Below are positions 3,497 to 17,242 of a stretch of 64,000 bases of DNA, piece after piece. The stretch spans positions 1-64,000 of the forward strand of contig MPMM01000001.1 in NCBI GenBank assembly GCA_002238505.1. The letters run 5' to 3'. This DNA comes from SAR202 cluster bacterium bin22. Its GTDB lineage: Bacteria; Chloroflexota; Dehalococcoidia; Lucifugimonadales; UBA3495. The translations under genes and the position numbers were made by a program. Below the pieces are notes generated by a model that had not been told where the DNA came from, made no database searches, and saw only the letters and a program-made list of their open reading frames with translations. Each line of letters begins with the position of its first letter. The stretch's first letter is position 1.

Positions 3497-5242
3497 CTAA
3501 TTGGTAGCTGGCACCTGGTTATGCCAGTAGTAGCCCCGGTTCAGGTAAACCCAGTCTTCGAGCACTTCGGGATTAACAGTAAAGTTGAACTTGAACCAGA
3601 ACATGGGAATGGTCCAGTGCTGCTCAAACCAGAAGTTTGAAACTTCGCGCCCGATCGCGTCGATCTCTGGCTGGGTCGTCTTGTCCAGGGTTTCCTGGTA
3701 CTTCTCCTCGATGAAGGGGTGAGCGAAGTGGAATCCACTGGTATTGGAGGGAGCCTCCGTCCTTATGCGGTCGTGAATCTTGCGGAAGCTGAACACGTTG
3801 GCATAGACGTTGTGCTGCATCTGCTTTTCGCGTCGCTTCTTGGAGTAGGCCCCGGAGTCCATATCCAGGATGGTGGCTTCTATGCCCACCGGTCCCCAGT
3901 ACTGGGGCATCGCCTCTACAGCAATGGGGGATTCCGGTTCGCCGGAGGTTCGGTAGTTAACGATCTCGACCTTGATCGGATTATCAGGTCCGAAGCCAGC
4001 TTCGGCCAGCAATGCCTTTGCGGCTTCAGGATCGTAACCGTACTCTTCATCCCAGCTGGTATCCCACTCAGGGTTGTAAATGTTGCCGTCCAACACCGGG
4101 TGGCAGCAGGCGGTAACGTGCATCCGCTCGCCTTCTCCCTTGAATATGAACTCATTCAACTCGTCCCGGTTGATGGCCTTGTTCATGGCCTTGCGTACCC
4201 GCACGTCAGACCACGGAGTGGTGGGGTCGAAGTCCGTGTCGCCAGGCATCAGGTACATGCCGCCGAAAAACAGGCTAAGCTGGCTGAACGCCTGCTGGGC
4301 GGGTATGACCTTCATGCCGTTCTCAATGGCAGTCTCCTGCAGGTCGCGGGAGAGGGCGATGGCGTGAATCTCACCTGCCAGTAGTCCGGCCAGCCTGGTG
4401 GATTCCTCACCGATCCACCGGATTTCCATCTCTTCGAATGGTGATTGAATGCGCCAGTGGTCGAAGGGCACCCGCTCGTACACCACGCCCTCACCGAGGT
4501 TGCGCTCAAGGAACTGATAGTAGCTGGTGCTGGCGGGCTTCACCCCATCCAGGTTGTCGTACCCTACCTCGTCCACCTGCTGCTTGCTGAGGGAGAATAA
4601 CTCCAGGCCGGTGGGCAAGTTGGAAACAACGCTGATCATGGGCAGGGAAGCGTTGTTCATGGTGTACTGTACGGTGTAGTCGTCCACCGCCTCGGCCTGG
4701 GCCATTTCCTTCCAGAAACTGGTGGTGCTGGACTGGCAGTCGGTGTTGGATTTGGCAACGGCCATGTCGACGAAGTCTTGCGCCGTCATTTCGCCATAGC
4801 CGTGGTGGAATTCGACGCCTTGCCTCAACTTGAAGGTCCAGGTCTTTGCATCGGCAGTGGTTTCCCACGACTCGGCCAGCCACGGGTTGAACTCGGCCGT
4901 AACCGGGTCAGCCTCTACGAGGAATTCGACGTAGGGCAAGAACTGGGAGATGATAGGCCTGTTACCACCACAGTGTTGATTGGTCTCTACTTGTATTTCA
5001 CCCTGGGATTCCACGTACCGAACCACTGTAGGCTCTGCCATTTCCTGTTCCATACTGGTGTCGGCGGCAGCGGGTACAGCAGTGGGGGCAGGTTCTGCCT
5101 CTGCTACAGGTTGTTCCTGTGCGGGAGCGGGTTCCGCCGATTCCTCAGGAGCGGCAGCCCCGCAGGCCACAAGCAGGACAAGGACAAATAACATTGTTAC
5201 GAAAAGCAGAGGTCTATAGCTGTATATCCATCGGTTCCACAT
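3497..5242 (-). CDS. ABC transporter substrate-binding lipoprotein (SBP_bac_5-like)
   Basis: lipobox VLLVACG, WETTADAKTWTFKLRQGVEFHHG, VRKAMNKAINRDEL; head of operon with two permeases. Confidence 0.9.
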   Translation of the reverse strand: MWNRWIYSYRPLLFVTMLFVLVLLVACGAAAPEESAEPAPAQEQPVAEAEPAPTAVPAAADTSMEQEMAEPTVVRYVESQGEIQVETNQHCGGNRPIISQFLPYVEFLVEADPVTAEFNPWLAESWETTADAKTWTFKLRQGVEFHHGYGEMTAQDFVDMAVAKSNTDCQSSTTSFWKEMAQAEAVDDYTVQYTMNNASLPMISVVSNLPTGLELFSLSKQQVDEVGYDNLDGVKPASTSYYQFLERNLGEGVVYERVPFDHWRIQSPFEEMEIRWIGEESTRLAGLLAGEIHAIALSRDLQETAIENGMKVIPAQQAFSQLSLFFGGMYLMPGDTDFDPTTPWSDVRVRKAMNKAINRDELNEFIFKGEGERMHVTACCHPVLDGNIYNPEWDTSWDEEYGYDPEAAKALLAEAGFGPDNPIKVEIVNYRTSGEPESPIAVEAMPQYWGPVGIEATILDMDSGAYSKKRREKQMQHNVYANVFSFRKIHDRIRTEAPSNTSGFHFAHPFIEEKYQETLDKTTQPEIDAIGREVSNFWFEQHWTIPMFWFKFNFTVNPEVLEDWVYLNRGYYWHNQVPATN

Positions 5243-6563: not shown

Positions 6564-8012
6564 ATGGGCCTGAAGCGACTGCTTTTGAAACCTCTCTCCG
6601 GCTACCCAGGCGGTTACAAAGATATGCGGCGTGGCACTCAGGGGTTTGATGAGACGCCGCCCTTCCGAAAACCCGCGGATCCGGACGACCGGCGCAGCCG
6701 CATGCCGACCACAGGATTCAGGGAATACTGGTATCCGGCCTTGCCTGACAAGGACGTCAAGAAGGGCAAGCCGGAAGTGCTGCGGATGCTGGGTACCGAC
6801 GTCGTCTTTTTCCGGGACAACAACGATGAAGTGCAGGCGTTGCTGGACTGGTGTCCCCATCGCTCGGTTTACCTGTCAATGGGCCGCTGTTATTTCCCTG
6901 GCTACGTTACCTGCCCTTACCACGGGGCTACATTTGACGGCGAAGGCAACTGTGTGGCATTCCTGACCGAGGGGCCTGAATCCAAGATGGTGGGCGCCCC
7001 GGGAATGAAGGCTCGCAAATTCCCCACTGCAACCATCAAGGGCCTGGTCTTCGTGTGGATGGGTGATGGCGAACCTGTGGACCCTCAGGAGGACATTCCG
7101 CCGGAAATGTTCGAGGAGCACAACATCCACCGTCCGGTTTTTTCCATGTTCGATTGCAACTGGGTGCTGGTGCTGGAGAATACCATGGATGCTCATAACG
7201 CATTCATGGTGCACCGCAACGCCATTCGAATCCTGAAGAGCCGGCTGGGCGGCCGTCCCAGGACCCCGCTGGGGTACAGAGTGAACCTGGTCAACAACAA
7301 GACCGTCCACTACCAGCCGGGACGGGGCAAGTCCAGCGTGGAACGCTATTACTACGACGAAGATGGCAACATACCCTATCAGATGTATTACCCCGGGGTG
7401 GGTGGCGTCTGGCCCAAGACTAAATGGCGGTTGATGTGGACCTGGATTTTCGACCGGAAGGCGCGAAAGTCGGGACAGGCCCCGGGACGGGTACGACCGC
7501 CGCAGGCCGATTCTCCAGGTGTCAACGAATGGAACGGTACCCGTTTGCCGGGGATGTCTCGCACCGGCGGCAATAACGCCTTCTTCCGCAGCACCCGCTG
7601 GGCCGTCCCTGTCGAAGACAATTTGACCCGCATGGTTTACCTGAACGTGGAACGCTATAGCAAAAAGCCTAACGCAGTCAGGCGGCTGTGGAGTTCGGTC
7701 TCCTGGCCCTACCGCAACTGGGAGTTGAACTTCAACTTCCGCAACCAGGACTATGATGCGGAAAAGTACGTTCAGTACGAACTTCCCGAATACCTGTCTT
7801 CTACCGATTCAGTGGTAGTGGCCATGCGCCGCCTTTTCGTGGAATACAACCGCGATGTGATAAGGCGAAGAGAGCATGAGGAAGAGCTGCCCGAAAAGCT
7901 GGAAGAAACCGTCGCCGAGCAAATGGTTCGCGAGGGCGACGCACGGGTAGCCGAAACATCGGGAGCCTTTGACGTGGACAAACTGCAGGAGGAACTGTTG
8001 CGACGGGTTTAG
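6564..8012 (+). CDS. Rieske 2Fe-2S oxygenase (aromatic ring-hydroxylating dioxygenase-like)
   Basis: CPHR...CPYHGATFD Rieske motif; ENTMDAHNAFMVH non-heme iron motif; RBS ggagga. Confidence 0.9.
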   Translation: MGLKRLLLKPLSGYPGGYKDMRRGTQGFDETPPFRKPADPDDRRSRMPTTGFREYWYPALPDKDVKKGKPEVLRMLGTDVVFFRDNNDEVQALLDWCPHRSVYLSMGRCYFPGYVTCPYHGATFDGEGNCVAFLTEGPESKMVGAPGMKARKFPTATIKGLVFVWMGDGEPVDPQEDIPPEMFEEHNIHRPVFSMFDCNWVLVLENTMDAHNAFMVHRNAIRILKSRLGGRPRTPLGYRVNLVNNKTVHYQPGRGKSSVERYYYDEDGNIPYQMYYPGVGGVWPKTKWRLMWTWIFDRKARKSGQAPGRVRPPQADSPGVNEWNGTRLPGMSRTGGNNAFFRSTRWAVPVEDNLTRMVYLNVERYSKKPNAVRRLWSSVSWPYRNWELNFNFRNQDYDAEKYVQYELPEYLSSTDSVVVAMRRLFVEYNRDVIRRREHEEELPEKLEETVAEQMVREGDARVAETSGAFDVDKLQEELLRRV

Positions 8013-8047: not shown

Positions 8048-8091
8048 ACTTCCCCTTCCCCTTCGGCTTTGCGGTTGAAGGGGAAGTATTT
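8048..8091 (+). terminator. rho-independent terminator-like hairpin
   Basis: 11-bp perfect stem acttccccttc / gaaggggaagt followed by attttg. Confidence 0.7.
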
Positions 8092-8104: not shown

Positions 8105-10141
8105 ATGCAGGATTTGTTTGGCAACATTGGGGGTGAAGGTAACCAGGAGCAGGTTCAGGCGGGCTTTGCCCTTGACGATGGGACGGGACTAAGGGTAGTC
8201 AAGGCCAGGTTCGTCGACGAGGCAAAGTTTGATTGGCAGTTATTCCAGGGCTTTGATTCAATCCGTGTCCTGACCTATTCCGCCAGCATTCCCGCCATTG
8301 TAAAGATGTTGGATGAGTTCGGGTTTGACTCCTTTGAATGCGTATTTGGTTGTGAAGCCACCCTTAGGGGTATCAAGGATGTACTGGCATTTCAAAGGGT
8401 GGCAGTTGGCGATGCTCGGGCCGCTATCATGGGCCTGACCGACCAGCGACACGCCCATATCCTTTCCCAGGTGCAGGTAGGAAAGGCCTCGTTCCGAGTG
8501 CTGCGCAACCAGGTTGCTCATGCCAAGCTATATCTCCTCGAGAACCGAAGCAATGGATCTAGGCGTGTGGTGGTTGGCTCTGCCAATCTCTCAGAAAGAG
8601 CGTTTTCAGGAAGGCAGCCGGAAACCCTGGTGACGTTTGACGACGACCCAGAGGCCTGGGAGCACTATTCTCAGATGTATCGGACTATCAGGGACTCGGC
8701 TTCGGACGAGATTCCTCTGCCGGCGGAAAGGATAATAAACGCAGAGATTGAAATTGAAGAGGTGCCAGCAGTCTCGGATCATACTTCTACACTGGTCATT
8801 GATCGTCCGGCTGATGGGGATGGGATATCAAGCTTTCCCATTCAAGTTGAAAGGATCGAAAGAGTGGCTGCCGCCATTAGTCCCCACGTAGCGGCCGCTG
8901 CTCCTCCCTTTCGCAATGGAAAGCAACAGATAACGCCCCAGATCAAGCGCGAGATTAGCCGCATAAAGCTGGTTAAGTCCGCTGAGGAATCAGACAATCG
9001 GTACTTTTCACTCAAACGCGCGGAAGAAAAGGCAATATTGTCCGGCGAAGAGTTTCTGCTCGATTGGGATCAGGATAAAGTATCAACCGATGCCAAACTG
9101 ATGCTGGAATACTTCAACAACTATGAAGGCGCCTTCGAAGGGGACGTGTCGCGTCTGCAGCGGGATTACTTTACCCTCTGGTCCTGGTTCTACTTTTCGC
9201 CGTTCATTTGCGACATGCGCTCCAGGGCTCTGCTGCTGGGGGAGGACGTAGTTCGGTATCCCTCCTTTGCCATAGTTTTTGGCAAGTCTAACTGTGGCAA
9301 GACGACCCTGGTCGATACGTTGATGACTTCGATGTTTGGCAAGTCCACTCCAGTGGATAAATCGAGCTTCACCAACAGGCAACTCAGGTCATTACAACAA
9401 GCGTACAGACGGTACCCGGTTGTCTTCGATGACATAGGCAGGAATGCATTTAGCAGGCATGGCAGAGACATAATCAAGGATGAGCTTCCCCCGCCCGTGG
9501 AGGAGTACCCCGGATTCGTCCTGTCCATGAATGCCGAGCCCACGGCCTTCCCCGATGAGATCGTCAAACGGAGTCTGATGATCTACACCACCACCGCATT
9601 ACCTCCTCACCAGGAGGAACTCAGGCAGCGATTGCACAGCCGCATCCAAGGTGTGCGGGAGGGTCTCACCGGGCATCTTTACCGCAGGTACCTTGCCGAA
9701 ACCATGGAATGCCTCAAAGAGGACAGCCTCCCCAAAGACTGGCTCTACTTGTCCTCTGGCGTATTGAGCGGAATTCTAAACGAATGCGGCGGGGAATCCA
9801 GCACGCCCCAGTGGTGCCAGGGCCAAACATGGCTCGGTTATGCGGAAAAGCGGTACGATCGGGTCAGGGCCCGCCTCGACGACCTGCTCCGGGCCTCAGC
9901 CTTGATGAAAAGGGAGGGTGAGACCCCCAACGGGTGGCTGATTGACGGGCAGCGGGTAATAGTATTGGAGCAGCGCGACGCATTTGGTCGCCGTGGCTTT
10001 GACTGGGAGGATGTGCCCTCCACCCTGATTGATGAGGATGCCAGTGGAGGGGCGAGAACTGTGTTGCATCGCGCAAGCCTCGAAGGGTTTCTGGGCAGAA
10101 GCCTGGCACCAAGGCGAAGGATGTTCTTCTGGAAGAAATAA
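8105..10141 (+). CDS. PLD/HKD-family nuclease domain fused to P-loop ATPase domain
   Basis: HAKLYLL...GSANLSERAF (one HKD-like motif), Walker A GKSNCGKTT, Walker B-like YPVVFDDIG; start moved from 8069 to ATG 8105 because the upstream part lies in a terminator hairpin. Confidence 0.85.
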   Translation: MQDLFGNIGGEGNQEQVQAGFALDDGTGLRVVKARFVDEAKFDWQLFQGFDSIRVLTYSASIPAIVKMLDEFGFDSFECVFGCEATLRGIKDVLAFQRVAVGDARAAIMGLTDQRHAHILSQVQVGKASFRVLRNQVAHAKLYLLENRSNGSRRVVVGSANLSERAFSGRQPETLVTFDDDPEAWEHYSQMYRTIRDSASDEIPLPAERIINAEIEIEEVPAVSDHTSTLVIDRPADGDGISSFPIQVERIERVAAAISPHVAAAAPPFRNGKQQITPQIKREISRIKLVKSAEESDNRYFSLKRAEEKAILSGEEFLLDWDQDKVSTDAKLMLEYFNNYEGAFEGDVSRLQRDYFTLWSWFYFSPFICDMRSRALLLGEDVVRYPSFAIVFGKSNCGKTTLVDTLMTSMFGKSTPVDKSSFTNRQLRSLQQAYRRYPVVFDDIGRNAFSRHGRDIIKDELPPPVEEYPGFVLSMNAEPTAFPDEIVKRSLMIYTTTALPPHQEELRQRLHSRIQGVREGLTGHLYRRYLAETMECLKEDSLPKDWLYLSSGVLSGILNECGGESSTPQWCQGQTWLGYAEKRYDRVRARLDDLLRASALMKREGETPNGWLIDGQRVIVLEQRDAFGRRGFDWEDVPSTLIDEDASGGARTVLHRASLEGFLGRSLAPRRRMFFWKK

Positions 10142-10318: not shown

Positions 10319-11929
10319 ATGCCTGCCAATGCAATCTGGATTCTCTTTGTCTTCATCGCTTATTTCGCGGTCCTTATCGGTATTGCCGTAGTACGCTCCC
10401 GGCACATGGACGATATGTCCGACTACGTGCTGGGCGGCCGTAAAATGGGGTACGTTACATCCGCCCTCAGCGCCGCCTCTTCCGCCACCAGTGGCTGGAC
10501 CATGCTGGTACTGCCGGCCCTGGCCTTTGCCGCGGGCATGATGCATCTGTGGACCGTTGTCAGTATCATCCTGGGCCACTGGTTTGCCTGGACCATACTG
10601 GGCAAGCGAATCCGCCGGTACACTTTGGCGGCAGAAAACTCGTTGACTCTCCCCGAGTTCCTGGAAAAGCGCTTTGGAGATACCAGTGGGTTGCTGCGAT
10701 CGCTTTCGGGCTTGATTGGAATCTATTTCATTACCCTCTATGTTTGCTCCGGCCTTATTGCCGGGGCCAAGCTCCTGGAAGTGGTCTTCGGGCTGGACCA
10801 CATGGCGCATGGCCACAACATTGGTGTAGTGATTTCGCTGATTGCGGTAGTGTCTTATACCTTCATTGGTGGCTTCCTGGCAGTCTCTCGCACCGACGTT
10901 TTTCAATCCGTGATTATGCTGGCGGGTTTCATCATTATTCCGGTTACTTTGATTCTTACCATTAACAATCCTTTCCACGGCCTGGAGTCCACCGCTCCCG
11001 GATTCTGGAATCCCTTCACCGATCAGAACAACTCCCAGCTGGGGATCTTGTTCTTTTTCTCGTCCGTTGGTTGGGGCCTGGGCGCTCTCGGGGCCCATCG
11101 TATTATTTCCCGCTTCATGGCCGTGCAGCGGGAAGGAGACATGAAACGCAGTCGGAATGTGGGCTCGGTTTGGGTCGTGCTGATATTTCTCTTCGCTTTG
11201 TTGATGGGTCTGGTGGCGGCTCCGGCCTTGCTGGACCGTGGCATAGCGTTGCCGGACGCTGAGAAACTCTACCTGGTGGTGGCCGAGACCTTCTTTCACC
11301 CCATAGTTGCCGGTCTGCTTCTTACCGCGGTCATAGCCGCCGTAATGAGTACTGCAGACTCTCAGTTGTTGCTGGCCTCAGCCATAGCCACCGACGATCT
11401 TCCGATTATCAAGAGGATCGCCTATGCCATGCGGACCCAGTCTCGGGTATGGATGGGCCGGAGTATGTTGTTGCTGGTGGGCGTCATAGCTGCCCTGATT
11501 TCCATAGTCTCCCCCGAGTCGGTCTACGCACTGGTATCCTTGGCTTGGGGAGGAATGGGAGCCGCCTTTGGCCCTGCCCTGATTATGGGGCTCTACTGGC
11601 GCCGCTTTAATCGCTGGGGGGCGTTGGCCGCTGTGGTTACCGGTTCCGTAGTCTCCACCTGGTGGTGGCTGGCTGGCCTCGGTTACGAGAAATACTCCAC
11701 CCTGGCCGACCTGTTAGGCTTCGAAGCAACGGTGGACCAGATGGAGGCCCTGGGAGTATGGCAGATAAACCCCGGTGTACCCGGATTCGTGGCGGCCTTG
11801 ATTCTTGGTGTTGCGGTCACGCTGCTGACCGCGCCGCCGCCTGATGAGATTACGGACCTATATGACCGGGTGAATGGCCCTGACTGGGATGAAGAGAACG
11901 AGACTGCCAGCCAGCCACAGCAGGCTTAG
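10319..11929 (+). CDS. sodium:solute symporter family protein (PutP-like)
   Basis: [38 protein letters not shown] motifs; ATG 10319 or TTG 10301 start. Confidence 0.9.
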
Positions 11930-15202: not shown

Positions 15203-17242
15203 ATGGCAACCCAGCCAACCATGTCAGCGCAGCCACCAAGCCTTTCCTCCTTTGTTGTTGCTTCCCAGGAATGGCTGAGCGAAGATTATGCCCCCTCAGT
15301 TGTGAGGCAGGTGCTTGATGCCCGCGACCAGTTGCCTTCCGACGTAAGAAGAGGCCTGGATGCGGCCATCCGTAATAGTGGTGTTCGTGTGCCGGGAGCC
15401 CAGTTTCAGCTCAAGGACGTACAGGACGCGCCTACCCATCACCTGCAGTCCCCAGTACTGCGCAAGATGCAGTCTTCCGATGAACTGGCTGAAGCCATAT
15501 TGCGGGCCTGGTCAGGGATTCAAAATGAGCTCTACGAAAGCGTCGTCCAGCATCTGCAGTGGAACGACGAGCCTACCTATGGCCCTGACCGGAAAGAGTT
15601 GTGCTTCCGGGGTTATTGGGACGCTCGCGACTGGCAAACGAACTTCAACCAGTTCCTCGCCGACCGGACAGGCTTCGACAAGAACGACGCAGGGCTGATG
15701 ATCTGGTATGTGTCCGGGAAACTGCCTCCTCCTTACGACGAGGTGCAGGATCCTATGGACCGGGTTGATTTTGGGCGATGGAAGGAACTGTTGCTGGCCC
15801 TGCGAGCAGATGCCTCCCAGTGGGAAGAGGCGCTGGAGTTTGCGTCCGCCATCGGGGAGATTGTTGTAGAGAAGGAAAAGCAGCGGGCCAGAGAGGCAGT
15901 CAACCAGTTGAAGGCCAGAATCCAGGATATCTGGTTGGAATATTCCGAGGAACTGGTTTACCTGGAAAGAAGTATCAGCGAATGGAGCGCGGCGAGGAAC
16001 ATACAACCCGAGGTTGCCCTGGATACGCTGGCCCAGGTGAATTACCTGGACTCCCTTCTGGAGCAGTACCGGCCTATCAGGGATCAGGCCCAGAGCAGAA
16101 GCGTCGAATCGTCCAGGGCCGGAAGGCGGGCTGAACTGGAGGCCGATATCATTTCAACGGTCTCGGAACTTGAAACCATTTTTGCCTCGAATCCCCGGCG
16201 CACATTTCCCGAACCGGAACCTGTCCTCGGCGGCGGTTTGGGTACTGTCATCACGGAGCCGGAGGCAGTCCTTGAGGCTGGCTCAGACGTAATTGTTGTT
16301 GAACCAGAGCCTTCCCTGGACACGGATCACGATTCCGCTGTCGCCGAAACGGAGCATCGCCTTAACCTTGAGCCAGACTCAAGATTTGTCGGGCCCGAAC
16401 CCGAGTTAGTCTTGGAGAGCGACCCTGACAGTCCGGAATTGTCTCTTCCGGAATCATTGGAAGTGGAAGAAGTAGTTCCTGTGGACCTGGAGCTGGAGCA
16501 AGATATCGCCCCGTCAACCATTGCGATGGACCTGGATGCTGGCTCTGAATGTGATGAGCTGGAATCAGGTGGGCTGAGTTCCCTGGATCCTGACCTCGAT
16601 CTATCCGTTGCCGGGCACGACGACACCGGTAAGGAGAATGAAGTCAGCATTAACGGTGGCTTGCTGGCGGGGTTACAGTCGTTGCGAGAGGACCTCGAAC
16701 TCCTGAAGGCCCAACTTTCAAATACCAGCGGCACGGATGCAGTGGAGCAGAGGATTGCCGATCTGGAGTTTGGCTTGTTGGCGGAAACCCAGTCCCCTGT
16801 ACCTGCTCAAGGATTGGCCGACGTTGTAGGGCACGCCGAGGGAGCATTTTCCAGGCAATTGCAGTTCCGGCTCAATTCCGAATCACTGGTAAATGAAAAC
16901 CCCTTCGATGATCCCCAGGCTGTGTCAGATGCATTGGAATGGCTGGCTTCAACCTATTTCGCAGCGCGGCAGGGGGAACTGGACATTACTTACCTGAACG
17001 ATTCCCTCTACCGGGCCTGTCGGTGGCGGTATTCCAGCAACCAGCATGACCGGCAATTCTTCGAGAACGAGGGACAGTATAGAATGCTGGTGAATGGCCG
17101 CGCCTATTTCCTGAACGAAACAATTGGGAAGGGTACCGGTGGAGACCCGGTCAATACTATCCGCATTGCCTTTTATTGGGACCGCCAGAGAGAGAAGGTT
17201 GTCATCGGCTATATCGGCCAACACCGGACTGGCAATTCCTGA
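15203..17242 (+). CDS. hypothetical protein with acidic E/D/P-rich central linker
   Basis: 679-aa uninterrupted ORF with RBS aaaggaggg; central degenerate EPEP/LDxD repeats. Confidence 0.75.
   Translation: MATQPTMSAQPPSLSSFVVASQEWLSEDYAPSVVRQVLDARDQLPSDVRRGLDAAIRNSGVRVPGAQFQLKDVQDAPTHHLQSPVLRKMQSSDELAEAILRAWSGIQNELYESVVQHLQWNDEPTYGPDRKELCFRGYWDARDWQTNFNQFLADRTGFDKNDAGLMIWYVSGKLPPPYDEVQDPMDRVDFGRWKELLLALRADASQWEEALEFASAIGEIVVEKEKQRAREAVNQLKARIQDIWLEYSEELVYLERSISEWSAARNIQPEVALDTLAQVNYLDSLLEQYRPIRDQAQSRSVESSRAGRRAELEADIISTVSELETIFASNPRRTFPEPEPVLGGGLGTVITEPEAVLEAGSDVIVVEPEPSLDTDHDSAVAETEHRLNLEPDSRFVGPEPELVLESDPDSPELSLPESLEVEEVVPVDLELEQDIAPSTIAMDLDAGSECDELESGGLSSLDPDLDLSVAGHDDTGKENEVSINGGLLAGLQSLREDLELLKAQLSNTSGTDAVEQRIADLEFGLLAETQSPVPAQGLADVVGHAEGAFSRQLQFRLNSESLVNENPFDDPQAVSDALEWLASTYFAARQGELDITYLNDSLYRACRWRYSSNQHDRQFFENEGQYRMLVNGRAYFLNETIGKGTGGDPVNTIRIAFYWDRQREKVVIGYIGQHRTGNS

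Follow-up and report, generated by a model that had tools for sequence, protein, structure and literature searches.

The open reading frame (ORF) at 8105-10141 of the window, the whole 64,000-nucleotide stretch of DNA analysed here, encodes a predicted PLD nuclease of the BfiI/NgoAVII/SauUSI type joined to a predicted SF3-like AAA+ ATPase, with conserved catalytic residues, on one polypeptide. The gene moves as a single unit, and its copies often lie at a tRNA, on a plasmid or next to defence genes. Comparison with its relatives suggests that the product is probably an unnamed one-protein defence system, and we consider it reasonably likely that it acts as a self-contained nuclease-helicase against invaders (phage and/or plasmid).

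Domains of the fusion protein

Both the ATG start and the stop of the ORF were confirmed. The frame is not a chance one, since it is open over 678 aa, has near-full-length relatives at 39-67% identity and carries catalytic residues that are invariant in bacteria and archaea. The features of the gene and its flanks are collected in Table 1. No Rfam match to a structured RNA was obtained near the gene. Elsewhere in the window, a 679-aa ORF (15203-17242) has acidic Pro/Glu-rich repeats in mid-protein and matches no Pfam model significantly (best E 0.13).

Table 1. Positions in the window of the PLD-SF3 gene, its predicted domains and motifs, and its flanks.
Feature	Position	Strand	Basis
Rieske-type ring hydroxylase, upstream flank	6564..8012	+	Pfam
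Terminator-like hairpin of the upstream Rieske gene, outside the PLD-SF3 gene unit	8055..8086	+	
PLD nuclease - SF3-type ATPase fusion, 678 aa, stand-alone gene	8105..10141	+	ORF, Pfam, relatives
PLD nuclease domain, NgoAVII/SauUSI type	8183..8704	+	Pfam, PDB profile search, AF2 domain model
Catalytic motif HAKLYLLE...GSANLS (H139, K141, E146, S159, N161)	8519..8593	+	Alignment of 21 diverse members
Poorly conserved linker, residues 201-317	8705..9055	+	Alignments
SF3-like AAA+ ATPase domain, residues 318-500	9056..9604	+	PF00910, hhalign
Walker A GKSNCGKT (G393-T400)	9281..9304	+	K399 in 21/21
Walker B-like PVVFDD	9416..9433	+	D442 in 20/21
Motif C / sensor 1 FVLSMN, ending in N476 (TSN in distant members)	9515..9532	+	N476 in 21/21
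Candidate arginine finger R489	9569..9571	+	21/21
Conserved C-terminal domain, residues 540-663, invariant P638	9722..10093	+	Alignments
Membrane protein, putatively sodium/solute-symporter-like (named from its sequence), downstream flank	10319..11929	+	

The HKD-like motif that a first-pass annotation had placed in the N-terminal third is present, spelled H139-A-K141-x4-E146 ... G158-S159-A-N161, and is thus of the form HxKx4E and not HxKx4D. The HxKx4E...GSxN form has been described for SauUSI (PMC7913695). In Pfam searches the window protein matched RE_NgoFVII at 27.4 bits (cut-off 23.8) and PLDc_2 at 26.2 bits, and the domain was present in 16 of 16 close relatives. When a PLD profile of 20 diverse members was compared with the PDB, the matches were mostly to the PLD superfamily and included SauUSI, Zucchini/MitoPLD, NucT, Tdp1, R.NgoAVII, BfiI and Nuc. 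An AlphaFold (AF2) model of residues 27-200, of moderate confidence (pLDDT 67.9, pTM 0.68), gave R.NgoAVII (4rct) as the best Foldseek match (E 3.2e-5, prob 1.00) and Zucchini as the second; a full-length model from two sequences (pLDDT 33.7) was discarded. Profile and predicted structure both lead to R.NgoAVII, which bears out the PLD fold proposed earlier. By catalytic motif and predicted fold, the N-terminal domain belongs to the PLD superfamily, in the BfiI/NgoAVII/SauUSI branch. In BfiI and NgoAVII each chain has one motif and two chains build one active site (PMC4267653). The window protein likewise has a single HxK motif per chain, which suggests that its PLD domains dimerise.

The central P-loop ATPase was compared with helicase families. 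It scored over the cut-off of the SF3-type RNA_helicase model PF00910 (22.8 against 21.5), and with hhalign the ATPase profile aligned with the D5/P4-type SF3 family at 96.3% probability over 110 columns. In the controls RuvB aligned over the 28-column P-loop only and a reversed decoy reached 0.2%. Walker A, the Walker B-like region, the sensor-like segment (motif C) and the candidate arginine finger, all picked out in the first-pass annotation, fall in register with those of SF3 helicases. The fusion to an ATPase thus stood, while its class was refined from a generic P-loop ATPase to a D5/P4-like, SF3-type AAA+ domain, an assignment that is good but not overwhelming since the SF3 set had only 6 sequences. 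Across the 21 diverse members, H139, S159, N161, G398-K399, N476 and R489 are invariant, and K141 and D442 are kept in 20. No relatives of the C-terminal domain were identified.

Distribution, mobility and decay of the gene

The family keeps one architecture of about 640-780 aa and occurs in Chloroflexota, Acetobacteraceae, Arcobacter, Thermotogota, lactobacilli, Thermus (where it is split by an IS) and haloarchaea. Plasmid copies were found in Acetobacter, Komagataeibacter, Thermus, Arcobacter, Halobaculum, Athalassotoga, lactobacilli and many haloarchaea; none of the 50,697 phage records searched held a relative. Of 39 nearby genomes, 8 contain the gene or a close, nearly full-length relative, the window's genome being one of them. 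At class level 16 of 393 genomes match, several through distant members only, and in a phylum sample 22 of 301; within one genus 7 of 13 genomes have the gene, a broken copy counted. Most genomes with the gene carry it once; where a second copy exists, it is of another subfamily. The link from the window protein to the most distant members is transitive: intermediates such as L018 match it weakly but over both halves of one ORF, and L018 in turn matches haloarchaeal members across at least 95% of its length. The family has no name in Pfam, NCBIfam or PADLOC 2023 as searched, and no description of the fusion was found in the open-access literature searched, although a newer one may exist. Its solitary occurrence in many genomes, and domains that resemble nothing more specific than generic PLD and P-loop models, may explain its absence from current catalogues.

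The genes on either side change from locus to locus, with few exceptions. At L095 and L096, two loci of the same genus with different contexts, DNA similarity extends from -64 to +40 around the gene at 82% identity and then stops. Other locus pairs resemble this one, the shared stretch being roughly the gene with about 60 bp upstream and 40 bp downstream. The unit that moves is the gene alone, as the first-pass annotation had supposed. Just upstream of the gene, the genus that offered the best material has a conserved TATACTAT-like element, which suggests that the gene brings its own promoter. The hairpin between the Rieske gene and the PLD-SF3 gene had been read as the latter's own terminator; it belongs to the Rieske gene, since the same hairpin follows that gene in congener G001 and its sequence can also be aligned in congeners G002 and G003, both of which lack the PLD-SF3 gene.

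At L034 the gene lies between two copies of a tRNA-Ala 3' end (2348-2380 and 4777-4805), with nothing else notable in the 2.4 kb. A tRNA was present within 350 bp in 3 of 16 Dehalococcoidia loci, with a rough Poisson P of about 0.0015 for which the distance cut-off was picked after the data were seen and the tRNA density was assumed. No terminal inverted repeats bracket the gene; their lack, together with the mostly single copy per genome, excluded a self-mobile transposon-like element. Immediately upstream of the tRNA-bounded gene of L034, two tRNA-Ala copies enclose a small ORF (1823-2310) that is GIY-YIG-like by eye, as though this tRNA were a place where small cargo genes collect. In one Chloroflexota genus, tRNA-Val(gac) lies near or bounds variable defence content (L095, 887-1011 and 4067-4191, duplicated; L096, 343-418; L099, 9828-9903) and has the look of an integration site for defence islands.

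Purifying selection acts on intact copies, dN/dS between intact pairs being 0.08-0.19. None of the 4 congeners of the window species has an intact gene. In G001, with the same gene order, a decayed remnant of residues 2-77 (E 1.2e-5) occupies the same site, so that the insertion is older than the split of the window species and G001. This remnant rules out a recent insertion at the window site, and with it the fresh cargo insertion envisaged in the first-pass annotation. Decay is seen elsewhere too: the G489 copy has four in-frame stops, and in Thermus transposase genes part the PLD half from the ATPase half. Such patchy presence and decay give the pattern of an accessory gene, unlike that of a housekeeping gene. 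At L098 an intact copy is followed after some 0.5 kb by a duplicated C-terminal fragment of the gene (227-905), which has an antitoxin-like ORF next to it. In congener G004 the Rieske gene is followed by an 803-aa ORF (L068, 149-2558, minus strand), GHKL-like by eye and with no Pfam or PADLOC match, which takes the place occupied in the window by the PLD-SF3 gene; the Rieske-adjacent site is a possible hotspot.

Genes found beside PLD-SF3 members

Neither the 45 other ORFs of the window, where the sole match was to an oxidoreductase model, nor 84 flanking ORFs in Dehalococcoidia contained a convincing defence gene; the matches in the latter were to a Fic protein, ABC/UvrA-type ATPases and cysteine-desulfurase-type models. 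The link to defence therefore comes from relatives, some of them only about 20-27% identical. Outside the window's clade, defence genes are common beside the gene. At L096 the neighbours are an HKD-SNF2 helicase (2e-104), a Type IIG enzyme (9e-142) and a DpdF/UvrD-like helicase, and HKD-SNF2 and Type IIG neighbours were also assigned at L109 by gene order and DNA similarity. BrxD-like ATPases adjoin the gene at L095, a BrxHI-like helicase (4e-72) at L107, GmrSD (1e-90) at L100, and a methyltransferase-like protein with a toxin-antitoxin-like pair at L099. Plasmid copies lie near recombinase and toxin-antitoxin genes, and several copies adjoin plasmid rep/par genes. The expected proximity of homologs to defence or mobile genes thus holds in several lineages outside the window's clade and, as regards defence genes, fails within it.

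On haloarchaeal plasmids a Piwi gene lies directly upstream of the PLD-SF3 relative in 4 of 11 examined, with one overlap of 8 bp, and in a fifth with one gene between. The direct cases are from Natrarchaeobaculum, Natrinema zhouii, Salinigranum and Halomontanus and the fifth from Salinirubellus (loci L120, L122, L168, L169 and L171). PLD proteins in pAgo operons have been reported earlier (PMC6299218). In haloarchaea the PLD-SF3 protein, operonic with pAgo, would probably be the effector nuclease of a guide-based system. Other haloarchaeal copies adjoin a ThiF-adenylyltransferase cluster (ThiF loci L119, L122, L166 and L170) and UvrD, PD-(D/E)XK and helicase genes.

Proposed function and known systems

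Genomic association suggests a defence function. In the mechanism we propose, PLD domains would pair into an active site, as in BfiI, NgoAVII and SauUSI, and SF3 domains would assemble as a ring on DNA, the probable target being foreign DNA in single-stranded form or under replication. ATP-driven translocation, with activation on abnormal or replicating DNA, would switch on an otherwise silent nuclease, and DNA would be cut independently of metal through a phosphohistidine intermediate. Gating of the nuclease by an ATP-driven motor is favoured, with precedents in NgoAVII, SauUSI and Hachiman, a helicase-gated nuclease able to destroy all cellular DNA (PMC12278908). Several points speak against a defence role: the flanks in the window's clade are without convincing defence genes; replicons are the typical home of SF3 helicases, and plasmid rep/par genes adjoin several of the copies; there is no target-recognition or DNA-modification partner to account for the sparing of self; and the phage records searched gave no relative.

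The main rival, because SF3 helicases and plasmid locations fit it too, is a protein that serves small mobile elements in their replication, transfer or maintenance, and in which the PLD domain would nick via a covalent intermediate and an SF3 ring would unwind, as in an HUH-SF3 Rep. Lone chromosomal copies would then be what is left of integrated elements, or such elements in minimal form. The usual role of SF3 helicases in replicons, the plasmid copies beside rep/par genes, the single-gene units, one of them bounded by tRNA-Ala 3' repeats, and the closeness of tRNAs at some loci all agree with this. However, in the loci read no rep, par or integrase gene accompanies the chromosomal copies, which are solitary, and no terminal inverted repeats bracket the gene; genomes mostly have one copy, second copies being of other subfamilies; and lone copies keep their catalytic residues under purifying selection. 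The company of restriction and pAgo genes is also better explained by defence, and we regard a Rep-like protein as unlikely.

An abortive-infection or RNA-targeting effector, by which infection would trigger unselective cutting of RNA, or of the DNA of host and phage alike, and the cell would die, is quite improbable: the possible non-specificity of PLD nucleases, the many copies next to toxin-antitoxin genes and the example of Hachiman, which shows how destructive a helicase-gated nuclease can be, speak for it, but the RE_NgoFVII/SauUSI-type domain and the SF3 ring point to DNA. A role in host DNA repair or DNA-end processing, with a Tdp1-like PLD domain and a helicase, seems highly improbable. 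Tdp1 carries two HKD motifs, whereas the window protein has one, and its closest fold is R.NgoAVII. Some haloarchaeal members are annotated 'tyrosyl-DNA phosphodiesterase' and some copies adjoin UvrA or MutL/MutS2 genes, or SMC/NurA genes; yet presence is patchy within one taxonomic family and even within a genus, copies decay, and neighbours differ in nearly every genome.

If the anti-invader reading is true, the family would add to the defences of bacteria and archaea a compact nuclease-helicase made of one protein and absent from current catalogues, a replication-type helicase would have been reused against replicating invaders, and the protein would offer a small setting in which to study the control of a metal-independent nuclease by a motor. 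A wider proposal can be put forward only tentatively: an unnamed, pan-prokaryotic family of one-protein defences that has recruited an SF3 helicase, from a class typical of viral and plasmid replication, as the motor by which a PLD nuclease engages DNA, and that spreads as a bare gene between tRNA and intergenic sites, acting alone in bacteria and as a guide-directed pAgo effector in haloarchaea. The haloarchaeal pAgo operons make the guide-plus-effector hypothesis directly testable.

Among known systems, the Type IV restriction enzyme SauUSI (PMC7913695), which protects against foreign DNA, resembles the window protein in the order of domains on its one chain, a PLD domain (HxKx4E) at the N-terminus and an ATPase after it. 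Its ATPase is, however, of SF2 type, whereas that of the window protein is SF3-like, and its C-terminal target-recognition domain for methylated DNA has no counterpart found in the window protein. A SauUSI-type Type IV enzyme was rejected, as no SF2 or target-recognition model matched. The ATP-dependent restriction enzymes NgoAVII/CglI (PMC4267653) have the closest PLD domain by Pfam model and predicted fold (4rct), and their nuclease requires the ATPase to cut, a trait that the window protein would share; they differ in having separate R and N subunits, an SF2 ATPase, a B3 DNA-binding domain and a cognate methyltransferase. In the BrxL-HKD variants of Type 1 BREX (PMC12839542) an ATPase is likewise fused to an HKD DNase in a defence setting, but there the nuclease is C-terminal, with an HRD motif, in a BREX operon, while in the window protein it is N-terminal and the gene is alone. 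PbeA, C3a139 (HKD with SF2 helicases) and Mokosh type II share the logic of a PLD nuclease plus a helicase; the helicase is SF2 in PbeA and C3a139 and of another type in Mokosh, and these systems have partners or larger proteins. Mokosh type II was rejected for want of such a helicase match in Pfam or PADLOC, the presence of a Mokosh model in PADLOC being unconfirmed.

DISARM DrmC matched at E 0.025 only, with no drm genes in the flanks, and was also rejected. So was a link to MADS: mad8 matched the window protein at E 2.8e-5, but the mad8 model matches UvrA at 1e-37, which marks the similarity as generic to the P-loop. The PADLOC models mad3 (PDLC04135) and mad8 (PDLC04140), noted at L045 (5944-8847), match UvrA at 5e-91 and 1e-37, and an ordinary ABC ATPase as well; such matches need care. 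The D5/P4-type SF3 helicases (DUF5906 and relatives), whose Walker A, Walker B, motif C and arginine finger are in register with those of the window protein, are fused to primases or replication domains and not to a PLD nuclease. The og_136 PLD proteins of pAgo operons (PMC6299218) resemble, in operon position, the haloarchaeal members directly behind Piwi, whereas the bacterial members seen, the window's included, have no pAgo neighbour. In G531 a C3a139-type gene is a neighbour of the PLD-SF3 gene and not a homologue of its ATPase.
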